64,000 nt of DNA from contig NZ_CP060717.1 in assembly GCF_014396585.1 (NCBI RefSeq), positions 310,001 through 374,000 of the forward strand. Reading direction: 5' to 3'. The number at the start of each line of letters is the position of its first letter. Position 1 is the first letter of the stretch. A program made the translations under genes and the position numbers. Source of the DNA: Sphingomonas rhizophila. GTDB taxonomy: Bacteria; Pseudomonadota; Alphaproteobacteria; Sphingomonadales; Sphingomonadaceae. Below, piece by piece: positions 50,070 through 61,451 of the stretch. The notes below the pieces were generated by a model, which saw only the letters and a list, made by a program, of their open reading frames with translations, ran no database searches and was not told where the DNA came from.

Positions 50070-50906
50070 TTAGCGGGCCCGGGCGATTACTCCCTGGGCC
50101 TGGATCAGGTGGGGGCGGTCGACCATGCGGCCGCCGACGGACAGGACGCCGGCCGACGGGTCGGCGGCGAACGCATCGACGATGGCGCGGGCGTGCGACA
50201 GTTCGGCGTCGCTGGGCGTGAAGGCGGCGTTGATCGGGTCGACCTGCGCCGGATGAATGGCGAGCTTGCCGGTGAAGCCTTCACGCGCCGCCGCCTCGGC
50301 TTCGGCGATCAGTCCGGCCTCGTCACGGAAATCGGCGAACACGCCATCGACCGGTTGCACCCCGGCGGAGACGGCGCCTGCCAAGCACAGCGATCGTGCA
50401 AGCTTGTAGGTGAAGGACAGCGACCCGTCGGCGTCGTATTTGCTCGATGCGCCCAGCGCCGCCGACAGGTCTTCCGCGCCCCAGCTCATCGCCCGCAGCG
50501 GCGACTTGGCATCGCGATAGCTGAGCAGGCCGAACAAAGAAGGCGCTGTTTCGGTGACGATGGCGTGAATCGGGATGTTGCCGGTGCGATGGGCGAGGCG
50601 GGTGACGTCGGCGCCGCTTTCCGCTTTGGGCAGGACGAAGCCTTCGACGTCGGCGACGCCGATCAGCTCCAGGTCTTCCTTGTGGAACGGACTGCCGATG
50701 GGGTTGAGGCGCACCCACCAGCGCGGACCGCCGTCGCGCTTCCCCATGTCCTTCAAGAATTCGCGCGCCGCCGCCTTGCGGTCGGGCGCGACGCTATCTT
50801 CCAGGTCGAAGATGAGGGCGTCGGCGGTGGTCTCGATCGCTTTCGCAATCTTCTTTTCGCTGTCGGCGGGGACGAACAGCCAGCTGCGCGGCGGCGCCTC
50901 GCTCAT
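50070..50906 (-). CDS. HpcH/HpaI-type CoA ester lyase (malyl-CoA or citramalyl-CoA lyase-like)
   Basis: A 278-residue TIM-barrel protein. The metal/CoA region shows [36 protein letters not shown] and [14 protein letters not shown], as in CitE-like malyl-CoA lyases. The reaction would split or form a beta-hydroxyacyl-CoA. It overlaps the MaoC gene by four bases; that pair is the usual layout for mesaconyl-CoA or methylmalyl-CoA steps. The exact substrate is not clear. Confidence 0.85.
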
Positions 50907-51355
50907 GCCGGCTTCCGCTTGAGCAGCGCGGATCGGGTGCATTCGCACACCAGTTCGCCGCGCTGGTTGAAGCTGCGATGCGCCCAGGTGACGATGCCGG
51001 CGTCCGGCCGCGACTTGCTTTCGCGGACGGCGATGCATTCGCTCTCCGACCGCAACGTGTCGCCAGTGAACACGGGCTTGGGGAACACCAGTTTGTCGTA
51101 GCCGAGGTTGGCGACCAGCGTGCCGAGCGTGGTGTCGGCAACCGACACGCCGATCATTAGGCCGAAGGTGAAGACCGAATTGACCAGCGGCTTGCCGAAT
51201 TCGCTCGCGGCGGCCGCCTCATGGTCGAGGTGCATCGGCTGCGGATTGTGGGTCAGTGTCGAAATCAGGACGTTGTCGGTTTCGGTGACGGTGCGGCGAA
51301 CCGCGTGGGCGACCTTGTCGCCGACCTGCCATTCATCGAAGTAGCGTCCTGCCAT
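50903..51355 (-). CDS. MaoC family dehydratase
   Basis: A 150-residue hot-dog-fold protein. The hydratase 2 motif includes [20 protein letters not shown] and the later Ser/Gly-rich [12 protein letters not shown]. It hydrates or dehydrates an acyl-CoA. The overlap with the CoA lyase gene suggests they act in sequence, as in mesaconyl-CoA conversion. Confidence 0.88.
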
Positions 51356-55492: not shown

Positions 55493-56926
55493 GTGGATTT
55501 GATCGCACCGGGCGCAGCCGAAGACCGCGTGGCGGTCGCGGCGGGCGCCCAGCACCTGACTTATGGCGAGTTGCGCCGGCTGGTGCGCGCGGCAATCGCC
55601 TATTTCCGGCAGGCCGGTGTCGGGCCGAGTAGTCGAATCGCGATTGGCGCGGGATCCAACCGCGACGGACAAAGCCTCGACAACTGGATCGCGCATCTCG
55701 CTATCATGGCGATTGGCGCGACACATGCTTCGGTTGGATCGGGACAGGGGCTGGCCCGGCTGATCCAAGCGCGGCTCGTCAAGATCCTGATCGGTCCAGC
55801 GCGACCCGGCGAACCCGTGCCAAAGCCGCTGCGCCTGATCCCGTTCCGGGCAGCGCTGCTTGCCCCGGTCCGCGGCGACGACCCGATCACGCTCCACCCG
55901 CGAGCGGTCCGATTGAACATGTCCTCGGGCACGACCGGCACGCCCAAGCGCGTCGAGTGGGACAGCGCGATGATCGAACAGCGATTGGCGCAAGCCGGGG
56001 AGTTCGTCACCGGCGACACGAAACTGTTCGACTTCCTGTCGATGACGACCACGGCCGGTTTCCGCTATCCGCTGGCGACCTGGCGCGCGGGCGGAACGGT
56101 GCTGTTCTACCCGCAGGGCGACGAAAAAGGGCTCCGCAGGACGATCGAGCGGTCGAACCTGTTCGTGTGTTCGCCCGACGAACTGTCCCACCGCCTGAAG
56201 AAAAATGACGGACCGTGGCTGGGCCGCGAAGATCGCACGATCATGGTACTCGGGGCACGCCTGCCAACTGCGGTGCGCGATGCAGCTTTGCAGGATGTCG
56301 GTCGCGAGATCGTCATCAGCTACGGCTCTACAGAGGGCGGGAGTGTCGCATCGGGAAGTAGCGACCTTCTCGATCGTCATCCCGGCGCGGTCGGGTTCGT
56401 GCGTGAAGGGGTCACGGTCCGTGTCGCCGACGACAGGGGCGTCGAATGTCCGCCGGGGGTCGCGGGCGAGCTTGCCATCCAGGGGCCGGCGGTGTGCCGG
56501 GCCGCCTATCGCGGCTCGGGCAAGGGCGACCGCTGGTTTTATCCTGGAGACCTGGCGGTGCTCCACGAGGACGGACTGCTGGCGATAGAGGGACGCGTTT
56601 CGGAAACGCTCAACCTTGGCGGCACCAAACATAATGCGGCAGCGATGGAGACGCGCCTGCTGAAAATCGAGGGAATCGACGATGCGGCGGTCTGCGTGGT
56701 CAGCACGACGAGCAGCGACCACGGGGTCGTTGCGCTGGTCTGTGAAGCATCGGTCGATGTCGAGGCCATACGCCCTGCGATCACCGAGGCCGTGACGCTT
56801 CGGGATTTCGAGATCATCCGCATCGAGAAGCTGCCGCGCAATTCCATGGGAAAGATTGTTCGCCACGACCTGGGGCGACAGTTGAAGCCCGCGATCGAAG
56901 CGCTTGGAGCTCGCCAGGATGCATAA
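55493..56926 (+). CDS. Divergent AMP-forming acyl/aryl-CoA ligase family protein
   Basis: A 477-residue adenylating enzyme. The P-loop region is NMSSGTTGTPKRVEW, followed by YGSTEGG, the hinge LNLGGTKHNAAAMETRLL and the C-terminal catalytic Lys of RNSMGKIVR. It is shorter than usual CoA ligases and its N-terminal part is divergent, so the acid it activates cannot be told. I chose a GTG with AGGGGGA upstream; longer frames lack this. It overlaps the next gene by eight bases, forming a three-gene operon with the dehydrogenase and the fusion enzyme. Confidence 0.8.
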   Translation: MDLIAPGAAEDRVAVAAGAQHLTYGELRRLVRAAIAYFRQAGVGPSSRIAIGAGSNRDGQSLDNWIAHLAIMAIGATHASVGSGQGLARLIQARLVKILIGPARPGEPVPKPLRLIPFRAALLAPVRGDDPITLHPRAVRLNMSSGTTGTPKRVEWDSAMIEQRLAQAGEFVTGDTKLFDFLSMTTTAGFRYPLATWRAGGTVLFYPQGDEKGLRRTIERSNLFVCSPDELSHRLKKNDGPWLGREDRTIMVLGARLPTAVRDAALQDVGREIVISYGSTEGGSVASGSSDLLDRHPGAVGFVREGVTVRVADDRGVECPPGVAGELAIQGPAVCRAAYRGSGKGDRWFYPGDLAVLHEDGLLAIEGRVSETLNLGGTKHNAAAMETRLLKIEGIDDAAVCVVSTTSSDHGVVALVCEASVDVEAIRPAITEAVTLRDFEIIRIEKLPRNSMGKIVRHDLGRQLKPAIEALGARQDA

Positions 56927-58085
56927 GATGATCAGCCGACCGATGAGCGATGGGAATGCCCGGCCACGGCTGACGTCAGTGCTTCAAACGCCGTTCGCTT
57001 CGTTCGACCGTTCCCGCGATCATCACATTGGCGTGTTTGTTGGTGAAGGAATCGGCGAAGAAGTCGTGCCGGTTGCGGTCCGCCTGCTCGAACGGCTTGG
57101 CGAGCATTTCGGTCGGCGCCTTGTCCTCCATGAAGGCGGGCTGATCGGCCTGCCCGCCAAGATCGAGTCCGGAAGTAGCCTGTCGGAGGCGGTGAAGGCG
57201 CAGGCGCGCGAGGTCTTCGCGCTGGGCGGCGCCCTGTTCTGCGGCCCGGGCGGCGATCGCTTCGTCTACGAGGTGCGGCGGGAATTCGACCTCTATTGCA
57301 AGTTCACGCCGATCGAGCCGTTTCCCGAGTTGCGCGGCGCCGGATCGGTCCGCGACGCCACAGTTGCAAAGGCCGACATGATCGCCGTCCGGGAGAATAT
57401 GGGCGGCATCTACCAGGGCGAATGGAGCGACGAGCGCGGCGATGATGGCCGCGTTGCACATCATCGCTTCCACTATCGCGAGGCCGACGTCTGCCGGATC
57501 CTGGAGGTCGCGGCGCGGCTGGCGAGCACCCGCCGCGGCTCCCTGACCATCGTCCTCAAACCCGGCGGTATCCCATCGATCACCCACCTGTGGCGCGACT
57601 GTGCCGATCCGATCGCGCGCAGGTTCGATGTGCGCTTGAACGAGCTGGAGATCGACAATGCGGTCTACCAGCTGATTGCCGACCCCGGCCAGTTCGATGT
57701 GCTGGTGTCGCCCAACATGTTCGGCGACGTGCTGGCGGATTGCGGCGCGCTGCTGCTGGCCTCGCGCGGGCTGTCCTTCTCCGGCAATTTCAACGATTCC
57801 GGCAATGGCGTCTACCAGACCGGCCATGGCGCGGCGCGGGCGATTGCCGGCATGGGCGTCGCCAACCCGACCGGGCAAATCCTGTCGCTCGGCATGATGC
57901 TTCGCGAAAGTTTCGACTGGCCCGAAGCCGATGTGCTCCTGCGCGCCGCCGTCCGGCAGACCCTGGCCGATGGCATCGTCACCAGTGATGTCGCGGCGCC
58001 GGGTCAGGCGCCGGTTGGAACTGCGGAATTCGGTGCTGCCGTCGGCGATCGACTGGAACGGCTGCTCGACCAGCATCGGCCGTGA
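56919..58085 (+). CDS. Isocitrate/isopropylmalate dehydrogenase-family protein
   Basis: A 388-residue beta-decarboxylating dehydrogenase homologue. Family sites are GEGIGEEVVP, the substrate loop RENMGGIYQGE, a Lys in VLKPGGIPSITHLW, the metal Asp pair in NMFGDVLADCGALL and HGAARAIAG. The usual Glu after the second Asp is Cys, and the typical DK-N segment is altered, so it belongs to an unusual branch. The substrate is likely a 2-hydroxy acid (malate, tartrate or alkylmalate type). GTGA overlap couples it to the fusion gene. Confidence 0.8.
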   Translation: MHKMISRPMSDGNARPRLTSVLQTPFASFDRSRDHHIGVFVGEGIGEEVVPVAVRLLERLGEHFGRRLVLHEGGLIGLPAKIESGSSLSEAVKAQAREVFALGGALFCGPGGDRFVYEVRREFDLYCKFTPIEPFPELRGAGSVRDATVAKADMIAVRENMGGIYQGEWSDERGDDGRVAHHRFHYREADVCRILEVAARLASTRRGSLTIVLKPGGIPSITHLWRDCADPIARRFDVRLNELEIDNAVYQLIADPGQFDVLVSPNMFGDVLADCGALLLASRGLSFSGNFNDSGNGVYQTGHGAARAIAGMGVANPTGQILSLGMMLRESFDWPEADVLLRAAVRQTLADGIVTSDVAAPGQAPVGTAEFGAAVGDRLERLLDQHRP

Positions 58086-59968
58086 CCGGCCGCATCGCGC
58101 TCCTGTCGATCGACCTGCAGCGCGATTATCTCGCGCGGCGCGGCCTGATGCCGGAGGCGGAAACGCTGGTCGCGAACGCCGAAGCCTTGCTTGGCTATGC
58201 GCGGTCGAAGGGCTGGCTGGTGGTCCATGTGCGGACCGAAAGTGACGCCGATCAGGTCATGCCGCATCGGCGCGACGTACCCGAAGTGGTCGCGGGCTCG
58301 GCGGGTGCGGAGTCGCCGCCCGAGCTGACGGCGGTCGATGGCGAGTCGGTGGTCATCAAGCGATTCTTCGATCCGTTCGACCGGCCCGAACTGGACGAAC
58401 GGCTCCGCGAATCCGGGGTGGCGCGGGTCGTCCTGATGGGCGTGCAGTCGCACGCCTGCATTCGGGCGGCCGCCGTTTCCGCCTACGCCCGCGGTTATGA
58501 TGTCGCCATTGCGACCGAGGCCGTCGGCAGCGACTCCCCCTTGGACGGCGATTTGGCGCTGGAGTGGCTGGACCGCAGGGCCATGACCTCGGTCCGGCTC
58601 GCTTCGCTTGGCGGCGTTTCGCCGGCGCCGGTCATGTGGCGTCATGTCGATCCGACCGACCGCACTGCCATCCTGTTCGAAGTCGAAAGCGGCTCGCCGG
58701 CCAGCGTCGCGGCGGCCGCCGACACCCTTCGTTGCCGGCAGCCCGGCTTGAAGGAACTGCCGACGGCCGAGCGCGCGTCAAGGCTTCGTCGCTGGCACGA
58801 CGACTTGAACGCGCGCCGCCCGGACTGGGTCGAAGCGATCGTCCGCGATGTCGCCAAGCCGAGGCGAGATGCCGAGGGCGAGGTCGCCTACGGACTCGAC
58901 CTGCTCGCCAATGTTGCCGCGACGGTCGCGCTCGGCGACGAAGCCCCGCATGTCGCCCGCCATCCGCATGGGCTGGTCGGCCTGATCACGCCTTGGAACA
59001 ATCCGTTCGCACTCGCCGTCGGCAAGATCGCGCCCGCGCTCGGGTTCGGCAATGTCGCGCTGCTGAAGCCCGCGTTCCCGGGCGCGCGCATCGCCACCCG
59101 GCTCATCGAAAGCCTCGAGGCTGCCGGCCTGGCCGACTTCATCGCCGTCGCCCAAGGCGGGCCATCGGTCGGCCGTGCGGTCGCAAACGTCGCGGATGCG
59201 GTGTCGATCACTGGCTCGACGCTCGCCGGCCAGCAACTGGCCGGCCTCGGCGGCCATCGCCGCATCCCCGTGCAGGCGGAGATGGGCGGCAACAATGCGG
59301 CGATCGTCGACGAGAGCGCCGACCTTGACGCAGCCGCGGTCGATCTCGCGGCCGCCATGTTCAGCTTCTCTGGCCAGCGCTGCACTGCGGTCCGCCGGGT
59401 TATCCTTCTGGATTCGATCGCGGAGGCATTCACGGAGCGACTCGCGGCCGCGACGCGGGCACTCCCCATTGGCATGCCGTCGGACCCGGCGACGATCATC
59501 GGGCCGGTGATCAGCGAGGCGAAGCGCGACCAACTTCTGACGACGATCGCGTCGGTAGGAACCTCGGGCGGACGTCTGCTTTGCGGCGGGGAAGACGGCG
59601 GCTTGGAAGGCGGAAGCTGGCTCGCGCCGACGATCGTCGACCATATCGACCCCGCACACCCCCTGGTCTGCGATGAGCAGTTCGGGCCGGTGGTCGCGCT
59701 GGAAAGCGTCACGACCTTCGATGATGCCCTAGCCGCGCATGACCGCACCGGTGCTGGCCTTCTGGGTGCGCTATTTTCGACCGATGAGGCACGGATTGCC
59801 CGCTTTCGCCGCGTCGCGATGGCGGGAATTCTGTCGATCAATCGGGCGCGGCCTCCGTTCGACGCCGGTGGGCCGTTCGTCGGCTGGAAGGACAGCGGCT
59901 TTGGCGTGGCCGAGCACGGACGCTGGAACCGCGACGTCTATACGCGGGTCCAGGCCGTCTACCGCTAG
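58082..59968 (+). CDS. Cysteine hydrolase (isochorismatase-like) / aldehyde dehydrogenase fusion
   Basis: A 628-residue two-domain protein. Residues 1-190 are an isochorismatase-like hydrolase with the Asp of SIDLQRDYL, the Lys of [11 protein letters not shown] and the Cys of GVQSHACI in the right order. Residues about 205-628 are an NAD(P) aldehyde dehydrogenase: PWNNPF, a Glu in QAEMGGNNA and the catalytic Cys in [11 protein letters not shown]. The two are joined by a short linker in one frame and no start lies between them. Both active sites appear complete. The substrates are unknown; two successive steps of one pathway are likely. It ends overlapping the convergent HxlR gene by four bases. 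Confidence 0.88.
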
Positions 59969-60426
59969 GCGTCGTTGGCCTTGTCAAACCGTTCCTGTGC
60001 GGCGCGGATGCAGCCGATGTGCTCGATTGCCCAGTCGCCAAGCGCGCGGACGGGTCCGCGAAGGCTGACCCCCAGCTCGGTCAATTCATAGTCGACGCGC
60101 GGCGGGATGGTGGGCGTCACCGTTCGGGTGACGAGCCCGTCACGCTCCAGCCCGCGCAGGCTGAGCGTCAGCATCCGCTGTGAAATGCCGTCGATGGCGC
60201 GCTTCAATTCCGAAAAGCGCTTGGGTCCGTCGCTCAGGATCATGACGATCAGCATGCTCCATTTGTCGCCCACGCGGTTGAGCACCGGCGCGACGTTCTT
60301 GCAGCCGGCCTGGTGGAGTTCGGGCGGGGGCGCGACCTCGGTCAAATGCCCGCTCGAAGCTTGCCCGGGGGCGGTCACAGAAATGTGACCTGGTGACAAA
60401 ATTTTGCGTTCTTGTGCGACGTCCAT
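59965..60426 (-). CDS. HxlR family regulator
   Basis: A 153-residue winged-helix protein with an N-terminal extension of about 40 residues. The HxlR core starts at [18 protein letters not shown], with the redox-relevant Cys, and continues [31 protein letters not shown]. It is divergently placed to azoR with a 51-base gap, as with YodB-type quinone sensors. The start is the ATG of MDVAQERK; a shorter start is possible. Confidence 0.88.
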
Positions 60427-60448
60427 GCCTGGTTATTTAAAGTGTCCC

Positions 60449-60465
60449 GGTAACAAATCAATACC
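60449..60465. promoter_or_regulatory. Candidate HxlR operator before azoR
   Basis: GGTAACAAATCAATACC has GGTA/TACC arms 9 bases apart, in the 51-base divergent gap 13 bases before azoR. A similar GGTGACAAAA occurs at the start of the HxlR gene. Such placement fits repression of both genes; it is inferred only from symmetry. Confidence 0.35.
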
Positions 60466-60477
60466 AAGGACCAAATC

Positions 60478-61023
60478 ATGACCACCATCCTCAAGATCGA
60501 CAGCAGCATCACCGGCGACGCCAGCGTCAGCCGTCAGTTGACCGAGGCAACGGTCGGCCAGCTGCGCCGCTCCGCACCCGACGCGAAGCTTGTCCAGCGC
60601 GACCTAGTCGCGACCCCGCTTTCGCACCTGACCCTTGGCGGATCGGGTGACGATGACGTCCTCGACGAATTCCTTGCCGCCGACGCCGTCGTGATCGGCG
60701 CGCCGATGTATAATTTTTCGATCCCCAGCCAGTTGAAAGCGTGGATCGACCGCATCGCGGTGGCCGGCAAAACCTTCCGCTATACCGACGCCGGTCCCGA
60801 AGGCCTTGCTGGCGGCAAGCGCGTGGTGATCGCCATCTCGCGCGGTGGTTTCTACACCCCGGATAACGCATTCGAGCATGTCGAAAGCTATCTGAAGAGC
60901 CTGTTCAATTTCATCGGCATCGAGCCGGAGTTCGTTCACTCCGACGGCGTCAACTACGGCCCCGACCAGCGCGCCGCGGGCATCGCCAATGGCCTCGCCG
61001 AAGTCGAGCGCCTGGCCGCCTGA
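60478..61023 (+). CDS. azoR: FMN-dependent NADH-azoreductase / quinone reductase
   Basis: A 181-residue flavodoxin-like enzyme. The FMN phosphate site is SSITGDASVSRQL, and AAPMYNFSIPSQLKAWIDRI-type sequence (GAPMYNFSIPSQLKAWID) follows with AISRGGFY. It reduces quinones and azo dyes with NADH, protecting the cell from quinone stress. AAGGA precedes the ATG. The divergent HxlR gene probably represses it. Confidence 0.94.
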   Translation: MTTILKIDSSITGDASVSRQLTEATVGQLRRSAPDAKLVQRDLVATPLSHLTLGGSGDDDVLDEFLAADAVVIGAPMYNFSIPSQLKAWIDRIAVAGKTFRYTDAGPEGLAGGKRVVIAISRGGFYTPDNAFEHVESYLKSLFNFIGIEPEFVHSDGVNYGPDQRAAGIANGLAEVERLAA

Positions 61024-61049
61024 CCCTCACACTCTTGGAGATTGATCGA

Positions 61050-61451
61050 ATGACCAACCAACTCGACGACAAGGCGCCGCTCATGCTCGGCGTGCTCCGG
61101 ATCATGGCCGGCCTCCTGTTCCTGGCGCATGGCACGCAGAAATTCCTTGGTTTTCCCCACGGCCAGATGGCGGGCATGGGCCTCGCGCTCGACAATCCCG
61201 GCGCTTATGCCGGGATCATCGAACTGGTGGCGGGCGCGCTAATCGCGCTGGGCCTGTTTACGCGTCCGGCGGCGTTCTTGGCGTCGGGAACGATGGCCGC
61301 GGCCTATTTCATCGGCCACGCGCCGCAGAACTTCTGGCCGGTCAACAACATGGGCGACGCGGCCATTCTCTACTGCTTCGTCTTCCTCTATTTCGTGTTC
61401 GCCGGTCCAGGACGCCTGAGCGTCTCGGGCACGGCGCAGCGCGCGGCCTGA
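61050..61451 (+). CDS. DoxX family membrane protein
   Basis: A 133-residue protein with four predicted helices. The family region is LRIMAGLLFLAHGTQKFLGFP, then GIIELVAGALIALGLFTRPAA. DoxX-like proteins are linked to redox or thiol stress. It is 26 bases after azoR and likely co-transcribed. The ATG has GGAG upstream. Confidence 0.9.
   Translation: MTNQLDDKAPLMLGVLRIMAGLLFLAHGTQKFLGFPHGQMAGMGLALDNPGAYAGIIELVAGALIALGLFTRPAAFLASGTMAAAYFIGHAPQNFWPVNNMGDAAILYCFVFLYFVFAGPGRLSVSGTAQRAA

Follow-up and report, generated by a model that had tools for sequence, protein, structure and literature searches.

A conserved unit of three overlapping genes, kept in scattered bacteria of two phyla, was found in the window (the whole 64,000-nucleotide stretch of Sphingomonas rhizophila DNA analysed here). 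The genes encode an adenylate-forming enzyme (LIG), a beta-decarboxylating dehydrogenase (IDH) and a fusion of a cysteine hydrolase domain (ISO) with an aldehyde dehydrogenase domain (ALDH), as listed in Table 1. Each enzyme is of a known family; nothing comparable to their combination, to the fusion or to the altered IDH pocket turned up in the libraries and literature searched. A sequence-only reading had suggested that the set looks like an undescribed pathway, and no description of the LIG-IDH-[ISO-ALDH] gene set was found in the open-access literature searched. We tentatively propose that the unit is a small self-contained cassette for specialised metabolism with the four-step chemistry given below, a reading which we place just short of an even chance.

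Table 1. Features of the cassette, in window coordinates
Feature	Position	Strand	Details
LIG, adenylate-forming enzyme (acyl-CoA ligase / adenylation-domain superfamily)	55493..56926	+	477 aa, GTG start; PF00501 112.4 bits
IDH, beta-decarboxylating dehydrogenase of separate subfamily	56919..58085	+	388 aa from ATG 56919; PF00180 211.3 bits
ISO-ALDH fusion	58082..59968	+	628 aa, GTG start; one open frame, two Pfam domains
ISO domain, isochorismatase-fold cysteine hydrolase	58082..58636	+	PF00857 109.5 bits; D11-K93-C126 triad
ALDH domain, including ALDH N-terminal region	58637..59968	+	PF00171 329.1 bits; Cys and Glu motifs

The GTG start of LIG lies just behind the sequence AGGGGGA, and its stop codon is read at 56924–56926. 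The ATG of IDH gives an overlap of 8 bases with LIG, and the TGA of IDH (58083–58085) and the GTG of the fusion share the four bases GTGA. The overlaps of 4–8 bases among the three genes that were noticed earlier are therefore real, and all genes are on the same strand. Consensus scans revealed neither a promoter upstream of the operon nor a terminator downstream. The only promoter-like site (0.6 expected) is located inside LIG on the opposite strand, and terminator-like sites numbered 0 vs 3.6 expected. According to the window open reading frames and Pfam, no carrier protein or transporter is seen beside the cassette. A gene for an HxlR-type regulator (59965–60426) adjoins the cassette; there is no known link between the two.

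Fifteen loci were counted, seven from proteobacteria (window included) and eight from Verrucomicrobiota. The order LIG-IDH-[ISO-ALDH] is present in 7/7 proteobacterial loci, and Sphingomonas alba SE158 and Sphingomicrobium nitratireducens O-35 are among its carriers. At all 15 loci, the gene that comes next after IDH is (ISO-)ALDH, the ALDH of L022 being cut by the contig end. The search for the same three-gene order in other genomes, which had been suggested as a check, thus supports the claim of a gene cluster. The ISO domain is found at 13 of the 15 loci, and was not found at the L018 and L044 loci themselves. It is fused to ALDH in 12 of these 13. As the fusion recurs in independent genomes, it is genuine and not a sequencing artefact. 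The distances of IDH and ALDH are correlated (Mantel r 0.79; 0/5000 permutations; 13 of the 15 loci used). Inside the six proteobacterial loci alone the correlation is 0.51, and the overall correlation is partly due to the split between the two phyla. The cassette is rare, occurring in 5 of 71 genomes of the genus and in 1 of 385 genomes of a class sample. This rarity would fit genes that are neighbours by chance and share no function. The conservation is strongly against such a reading, as the same unit is present in two phyla with overlapping genes, a recurrent fusion and correlated divergence, and we give it practically no weight.

For these counts, matches of equal identity or contigs of equal length were treated as duplicates and counted once: L004, L005, L006 and L007 were equated with L013, L015, L016 and L045, respectively, and the contig of L031/L054 with that of L017. 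Several candidates were dropped: L019, where a partial ALDH adjoins a Rieske protein; L023–L028 (ALDHs, 27–31%); L002, L003 and L008–L012, which have weak DNA matches or nothing but an ALDH; and the weak ligase matches L034 and L036–L039. In a plasmid collection searched by tblastn, the best 20 of 3394 records for ISO-ALDH and the best 20 of 707 records for IDH were all below 60% identity, and look like generic ALDH and generic LeuB genes, respectively; they were not counted as relatives. Among the matches listed, a cysteine-hydrolase gene adjoins an ALDH gene (28.5%) on one plasmid (H1, Paracoccus sp. Arc7-R13).

IDH is a member of the PF00180 superfamily by its score (211 bits vs the Iso_dh cut-off of 27) and by its catalytic and metal residues. 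R95, R133, Y140, K190, D222, N242, D246 and D250 (1A05 numbering) are kept in 15/15 IDHs. The stretches GPGGxRFVY and SPNMFGDVLAD form a signature of these IDHs. In contrast, six of the LeuB pocket residues listed in PMC2796266 are altered. L91, L92, the substrate arginine R105, N192 and E275 are kept in 3/3 LeuB proteins of the genus and changed in 15/15 IDHs. L91V, L92Y, N103K, N192G and E275Q are fixed, R105 is lost and L135 is changed in all 15; N103 is absent from the published list, and the mapping of N192 is less sure as it adjoins a one-residue insertion. Thus, the earlier statement that the catalytic residues of IDH are complete holds for the catalytic set, whereas the substrate-binding residues differ from those of LeuB. 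Isocitrate dehydrogenase has Asn at the L91 position (PMC2796266), which is N115 of the E. coli enzyme (PMC3521221, Table 2), and this position is Val in 15/15 IDHs. Judged by these residues, IDH is neither LeuB nor an isocitrate dehydrogenase.

Since the window genome has just one other PF00180 protein, a long NADP-type isocitrate dehydrogenase by eye, IDH might substitute for a missing LeuB in leucine synthesis, with its neighbours being incidental. The score of 200.3 bits against the NCBIfam model TIGR00169 (leuB; cut-off 353) and the changes at R105 and other pocket residues speak against this, and so do the neighbours conserved at 15 loci. LeuB is over the cut-off in only 9 of 71 genus genomes anyway. 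We regard this role as very unlikely. The earlier reading had suggested that the set could build or break down a 2-hydroxy-acid-derived compound. A 2-hydroxy acid as substrate is at most a possibility; the loss of R105 in 15/15 IDHs argues against the customary binding of an ordinary malate-type 2-hydroxy acid. Carboxylate binding could pass to the Lys that is invariant at N103, in which case the product may still be a 2-keto acid.

In the fusion, the Isochorismatase and Aldedh domains are both above their Pfam cut-offs (27 and 23 bits) within one reading frame. The triad of ISO is invariant in 9/9 aligned sequences. The AlphaFold2 model of ISO (pLDDT 89) matches amide hydrolases in the PDB by Foldseek, and the triuret hydrolase TrtA and the maleamate amidase NicF are among the best 50 matches. 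Score, triad and fold place ISO in PF00857. Of the 11 ALDH frames examined, 11 have the Cys motif GQRCT. The Glu motif in its strict form (AEMGGNN or AELGGNN) is found in 7/11, and the remaining four read QAE[LM]GG[SC]N; the catalytic Glu is thus aligned in 11/11. Score and catalytic Cys and Glu place this domain in PF00171. The catalytic residues of both fused domains are therefore complete, as had been supposed. Among the best 25 of 46 NCBIfam families matched, no equivalog is over its cut-off for ALDH; the best are ketoglutarate- and succinate-semialdehyde dehydrogenases (224.7 vs cut-off 770, and 224 vs 521).

LIG belongs to PF00501 by its score (AMP-binding cut-off 29.9 bits) and its lysine motif. 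The core motifs and the ligase Lys (PRNSMGK), which we take to be the A10 lysine motif of adenylate-forming enzymes, are invariant in 4/4 aligned sequences, in agreement with the earlier view that the catalytic residues of LIG are complete. No NCBIfam equivalog (named acid-CoA ligases) is over its cut-off among the best 25 of 86 families matched; the highest score, 104 bits vs a cut-off of 476, is with an acyl-CoA ligase family. For LIG, AlphaFold2 gave a poor model (pLDDT 61.9), which was left out of the analysis.

Relatives of LIG are located upstream of IDH in six other proteobacterial loci. An adenylate-forming enzyme is present at 13 of the 15 loci in differing subtypes: free-standing LIG at seven, A-PCP or A-PCP-TE at L021, L043, L044 and L071, and a PaaK-like enzyme at L018 and L020. 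One further adenylating enzyme was inferred across a contig break (L022/L052). The adenylating neighbour in Verrucomicrobiota is either A-PCP or A-PCP-TE, or it is PaaK-like and accompanied by a methyltransferase. A-PCP-TE is found in L044 and L071, and A-PCP with a C-terminal part lacking a Pfam match in L021 and L043. With 28.0 bits, the PaaK-like protein at L020 falls short of the Pfam threshold (29.9). At L044 the cassette and the A-PCP-TE gene are separated by a histidine-kinase gene, and the A-PCP gene at L043 has a convergent orientation. No adenylating enzyme was found in 20 kb around L072. As ISO was not found at the L018 and L044 loci, nor an adenylating enzyme near L072, neither is strictly obligatory. 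Residue 235 of the adenylation domains, presumably placed correctly by the GrsA residue frame, is Ala or Gly in an alignment read by eye, which suggests that the substrate would not be an alpha-amino acid.

An NRPS-like setting is thus observed at four Verrucomicrobiota loci. A carrier protein together with a TE or condensation domain is found in L044 and L071, and no such combination is found near the window cassette. L071 has condensation, PCP, TE and phosphopantetheinyl-transferase N-terminal domains. Condensation and phosphopantetheinyl-transferase domains at one locus point to specialised metabolism, and the NRPS-like setting of several Verrucomicrobiota loci favours a role in building over breakdown. 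A phytanoyl-dioxygenase-like protein, which we assign by its HxD..H motif as it has no Pfam match, is present in 6/6 Verrucomicrobiota carriers tested and also at L071; it is a 65-residue remnant in G841, partial in G902 and on a different contig in G843. It was found in 0/7 proteobacterial carriers, nowhere in 20 kb of L072 and not in G840 (the L019 genome). As it was found neither in the proteobacterial carriers nor around L072, it is outside the shared core.

Each reaction given here, the sequence of the steps and the compounds at either end are inferred. Using NAD(P), IDH would oxidize the hydroxyl group of a beta-hydroxy acid and release CO2. Without the arginine that holds the second carboxylate, IDH would probably yield an aldehyde (or ketone) and not a 2-keto acid. 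The fused ALDH domain would convert this aldehyde to an acid. The fused hydrolase domain may cut an amide or other C–N bond, either to set the substrate free or to unmask the product. LIG would adenylate a carboxylic acid for transfer to CoA, to an amine or, in some Verrucomicrobiota versions, to a carrier protein. A more specific reading is that a new pathway is common to Sphingomonadales and Verrucomicrobiota, in which a dehydrogenase lacking R105 makes an aldehyde out of a beta-hydroxy acid and a fused ALDH-amidase acts with it, so that an acid building block of a new kind is passed to free-standing ligases in one phylum and to NRPS-like enzymes in the other; this is possible, though we doubt it rather more than we believe it.

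The same four activities also form a single linear degradation, in which ISO hydrolyses the amide of a beta-hydroxy acid, IDH decarboxylates it oxidatively, ALDH oxidizes the aldehyde and LIG makes a CoA ester for central metabolism. The proteobacterial version without an adjoining carrier protein and the best NCBIfam match of LIG, an acyl-CoA ligase family, agree with this catabolic route. However, PCP, TE, condensation and phosphopantetheinyl-transferase domains are located near the Verrucomicrobiota relatives, and no transporter is seen beside the window operon. The catabolic route is a serious alternative, but a doubtful one. A model of tropic-acid/atropine degradation, with a decarboxylating dehydrogenase, an ALDH and a ligase, was rejected, as there is no sequence sign of an aryl substrate.

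Alternatively, LIG could acylate an amine, IDH and ALDH could oxidize the masked compound, and ISO could unmask it, as in the Puu pathway. PuuA and PuuD belong to families other than the AMP-binding and isochorismatase families of LIG and ISO, and free-standing ligases of the AMP-binding family usually make CoA thioesters; both points stand against such a masked route. It would account for the fusion of ALDH to an amide hydrolase as the last two steps, and its activity types equal those of PuuA-B-C-D (PMC9397018). On balance, we consider it unlikely. Returning to the specialised-metabolism cassette, the chemistry of a textbook dehydrogenase family would be widened if IDH yields aldehydes, and the cassette can be used to look for small natural-product clusters among sphingomonads and Verrucomicrobiota.

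In comparison with known systems, IDH shares the PF00180 domain, the metal aspartates, the catalytic Lys and Tyr, R95 and R133 with LeuB and the isocitrate, homoisocitrate and tartrate dehydrogenases; it differs from the LeuB family in the pocket changes described above and in a shorter stretch before R95. ISO has the triad and fold of isochorismatase-fold hydrolases (nicotinamidase, NicF, triuret/biuret hydrolases). Unlike them, it is fused to ALDH, and its top identity among the best 50 Foldseek matches is 31%, to an uncharacterised protein. The fused ALDH has the whole domain and the catalytic Cys and Glu of NAD(P)-dependent aldehyde dehydrogenases, but scores much lower than the cut-offs of its two top-scoring named families demand. 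NRPS-like clusters resemble the Verrucomicrobiota relatives, with A-PCP-TE or A-PCP nearby, whereas the window cassette has a free-standing ligase and no adjoining carrier protein. The Puu gamma-glutamylation pathway (PMC9397018) also comprises a ligase, an oxidoreductase, an ALDH and an amide hydrolase. In the cassette, by contrast, the ligase and hydrolase are of other families, there is no evidence of a glutamyl mask, and a decarboxylating dehydrogenase replaces the Puu oxidoreductase.

The cassette in the window consists of the genes for LIG, an adenylate-forming enzyme, IDH, an isopropylmalate-dehydrogenase-like protein, and ISO-ALDH, a single-frame fusion of an isochorismatase-fold cysteine hydrolase domain (ISO) and an aldehyde dehydrogenase domain (ALDH). 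As described in the sequence-only reading, the three genes overlap, LIG and IDH by 8 bases and IDH and ISO-ALDH by 4 bases, all on the + strand. The window genome is one contig of 2.56 Mb. Among the best-matching families listed, no cassette protein exceeds the cut-off of a named NCBIfam function.

Coordinates of the cassette genes and of neighbouring genes in the window and in relative loci (L-numbers)
Gene	Locus	Position	Strand	Remark
LIG	window	55493-56926	+	Pfam AMP-binding, far over cut-off
IDH	window	56919-58085	+	Pfam Iso_dh, far over cut-off
ISO-ALDH	window	58082-59968	+	Pfam Isochorismatase and Aldedh, one frame, both far over cut-off
HxlR-type regulator	window	within 59965-61451	-	overlaps cassette 3' end
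Flavodoxin-fold oxidoreductase	window	60478-61023		beyond the regulator
DoxX protein	window	61035-61451		beyond the regulator
HpcH/HpaI-citrate lyase family lyase	window	within 50070-51355	-	RipC model 146 bits, under cut-off 375
MaoC-type dehydratase	window	within 50070-51355	-	overlaps the lyase; also matches mesaconyl-CoA hydratase
N-formylglutamate amidohydrolase family	L016	11294-12124		few kb off cassette
N-formylglutamate amidohydrolase family	L045	3598-4443	-	few kb off cassette
Phytanoyl-dioxygenase-like	L018	4840-5808	-	no Pfam match
Phytanoyl-dioxygenase-like	L021	8362-9339		no Pfam match
Phytanoyl-dioxygenase-like	L043	11724-12731		no Pfam match
Phytanoyl-dioxygenase-like	L071	3950-4957		no Pfam match

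A scan of the contig collection with the ISO-ALDH protein gave 16 loci, and IDH adjoins ALDH in nine (L013-L018 and L020-L022). Genome searches added G035 (L045), G902 (L044), G909 (L043), G1453 (L071) and G1425 (L072). Including the window, 15 loci were obtained, eight of them in Verrucomicrobiota and seven in proteobacteria (L014 is placed no more finely than this). The named isolates with cassette relatives are Sphingomonas alba and Sphingomicrobium nitratireducens. The order LIG-IDH-[ISO-ALDH], whose recurrence had been in question, is identical in all seven proteobacterial loci. ALDH, with or without ISO, follows IDH in 15/15 loci, the L022 ALDH ending at the contig edge. ISO was found in 13 of the 15 loci, not in L018 and L044, and is fused to ALDH in 12 of these 13, counting L017 (frame break further on; contig with a stated coverage of 2.1) and L022 (fused as far as the contig end). 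The sole unfused case is L020, with ISO and ALDH in separate frames. Because fusion is found in 12/13, it is not a base-calling artefact, and the earlier concern about a sequence error is ruled out.

The distribution of the cassette is patchy. It is present in 5/71 genomes of the genus of the window (genome search, IDH matches included), 3/397 of the family sample (E 1e-70), 1/385 of the class sample (E 1e-80), 3/387 of the Verrucomicrobiota sample (E 1e-60), 5/209 and 1/196 in samples of two orders, and 1/210 in the class of L014. Every sample contains its centring genome, and a count of 1 is that genome alone.

PMC2796266 gives 17 residues within 6 Å of the substrate in the isopropylmalate dehydrogenase 1A05. 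These were transferred by phmmer alignment to 11 loci and then to the remaining four (L017 as two pieces). R95, R133, Y140, K190, D222, N242, D246 and D250 (1A05 numbering) are retained in 15/15 IDH sequences, and L91V, L92Y, N192G and E275Q are fixed, N192 adjoining a one-residue insertion. R105 is replaced by Thr, Ser, Asn or Val in all 15; by our reading, its counterpart in the E. coli enzyme would be R129, which binds isocitrate (PMC3521221). The L135 position is Asn, Gly or Gln, and V193 is variable. Gaps in the stretch around V73 and E88 make their mapping undependable, and the stretch preceding R95 is shorter than in LeuB. Apart from the undependably mapped positions, the standard letters are found in three LeuB proteins from the genus of the window. 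N103K, at a position off the 17-residue list, is also fixed in 15/15, and this Lys may compensate for the lost R105.

According to these residues, IDH is catalytically plausible with a substrate other than that of LeuB. A substrate lacking the second carboxylate would be consistent with the loss of the residue that contacts it. Oxidation and decarboxylation of such a substrate by IDH would give an aldehyde, and this would account for ALDH being the constant partner of IDH. In the window IDH, Ala is located in the HGxxxDIAG stretch where 10 other relatives have Asp and the three LeuB have Asp (two) or Gln (one). This stretch contacts NAD in LeuB, and the cofactor preference of the window IDH may be different.

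IDH as a replacement of LeuB is unlikely, since its pocket is changed relative to LeuB and LeuB over the cut-off is missing in 62/71 genus genomes, 18/71 lying outside the limit of 90% completeness and 5% contamination. The best listed NCBIfam match of IDH is LeuB, at 200 bits versus a cut-off of 353, and the only other PF00180 protein of the window genome is, read by eye, an NADP-type isocitrate dehydrogenase. In the tree, the IDH sequences form one clade separate from same-genus LeuB (100/100; midpoint root). The presence of LeuB over the curated cut-off in only 9/71 genomes (the window genome and 70 of the genus) suggests, judged from LeuB alone, that many members of the genus may be leucine auxotrophs.

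The ISO D-K-C triad is intact in 9/9 aligned sequences, the ALDH Cys and Glu are retained in 11/11, and the LIG core motifs are invariant in 4/4, including TTAGFRYPLA in the presumed substrate region (by eye). Together with the IDH residues, these results bear out the sequence-only reading of an unusual dehydrogenase and of complete catalytic residues. The predicted ISO model (pLDDT 89) resembles amide hydrolases including triuret hydrolase and maleamate amidase; among the 50 structure matches listed, an uncharacterised family member has the top identity, 31%.

Pairwise distances of IDH and ALDH are correlated over 13/15 loci (r 0.79; 0/5000 permutations as high), L017 and L022 being excluded for frame breaks or incompleteness. 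The split between phyla accounts for part of this value: r is 0.51 for six proteobacterial loci alone. The proteobacterial sequences group together in the IDH tree (99/99) and the ALDH tree (100/99).

An adenylate-forming enzyme is present within 13/15 loci, as a free-standing LIG in seven. L018 and L020 carry a PaaK-like ligase (in L020, Pfam 28.0 bits, cut-off 29.9; best NCBIfam family 135 bits, cut-off 300) and a methyltransferase. A protein with adenylation, carrier-protein and thioesterase domains (A-PCP-TE) is found in L044, with a histidine-kinase gene intervening, and L071; an A-PCP protein without a thioesterase match is found in L021 and L043, in the latter convergent with the cassette. 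L022 probably continues in L052, which begins inside an ALDH followed by a short ligase, over a contig break. No adenylate-forming enzyme was found in the 20 kb around L072. L071 additionally carries a condensation domain and the N-terminal part of a phosphopantetheinyl transferase. These domains indicate NRPS-like surroundings in several Verrucomicrobiota; no NRPS-like genes were seen next to the cassettes in the proteobacterial loci. A Pfam-less family, which we take from a motif to be phytanoyl-dioxygenase-like, is present in 6/6 Verrucomicrobiota carriers tested and in L071, in 0/7 proteobacterial carriers, and not near L072.

A SCO1/SenC gene is near the cassette in the window and L013, on opposite sides. 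On one side of the cassette, both L016 and L045 have a response regulator and a gene of the N-formylglutamate amidohydrolase family, the latter possibly common to them through kinship only. As the two sites differ from one another, neighbour genes are partly shared by kinship. The HxlR-type regulator, flavodoxin-fold oxidoreductase and DoxX protein look like a separate redox-response set. A lyase and a dehydratase are also encoded in the window (see table).

In an open-access literature library, no description of this gene set was found, in agreement with the earlier claim. The enzyme families are known, their combination is undescribed in that library, and the dehydrogenase pocket is altered. 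A catabolic route from amide to acid, aldehyde, acid and CoA ester would account for the proteobacterial gene set almost as well as the favoured reading of a cassette for specialised metabolism. A mask-oxidise-unmask scheme would resemble the Puu pathway, for which similar activities are described in PMC9397018, whereas the enzyme families of the cassette differ from those of that pathway.
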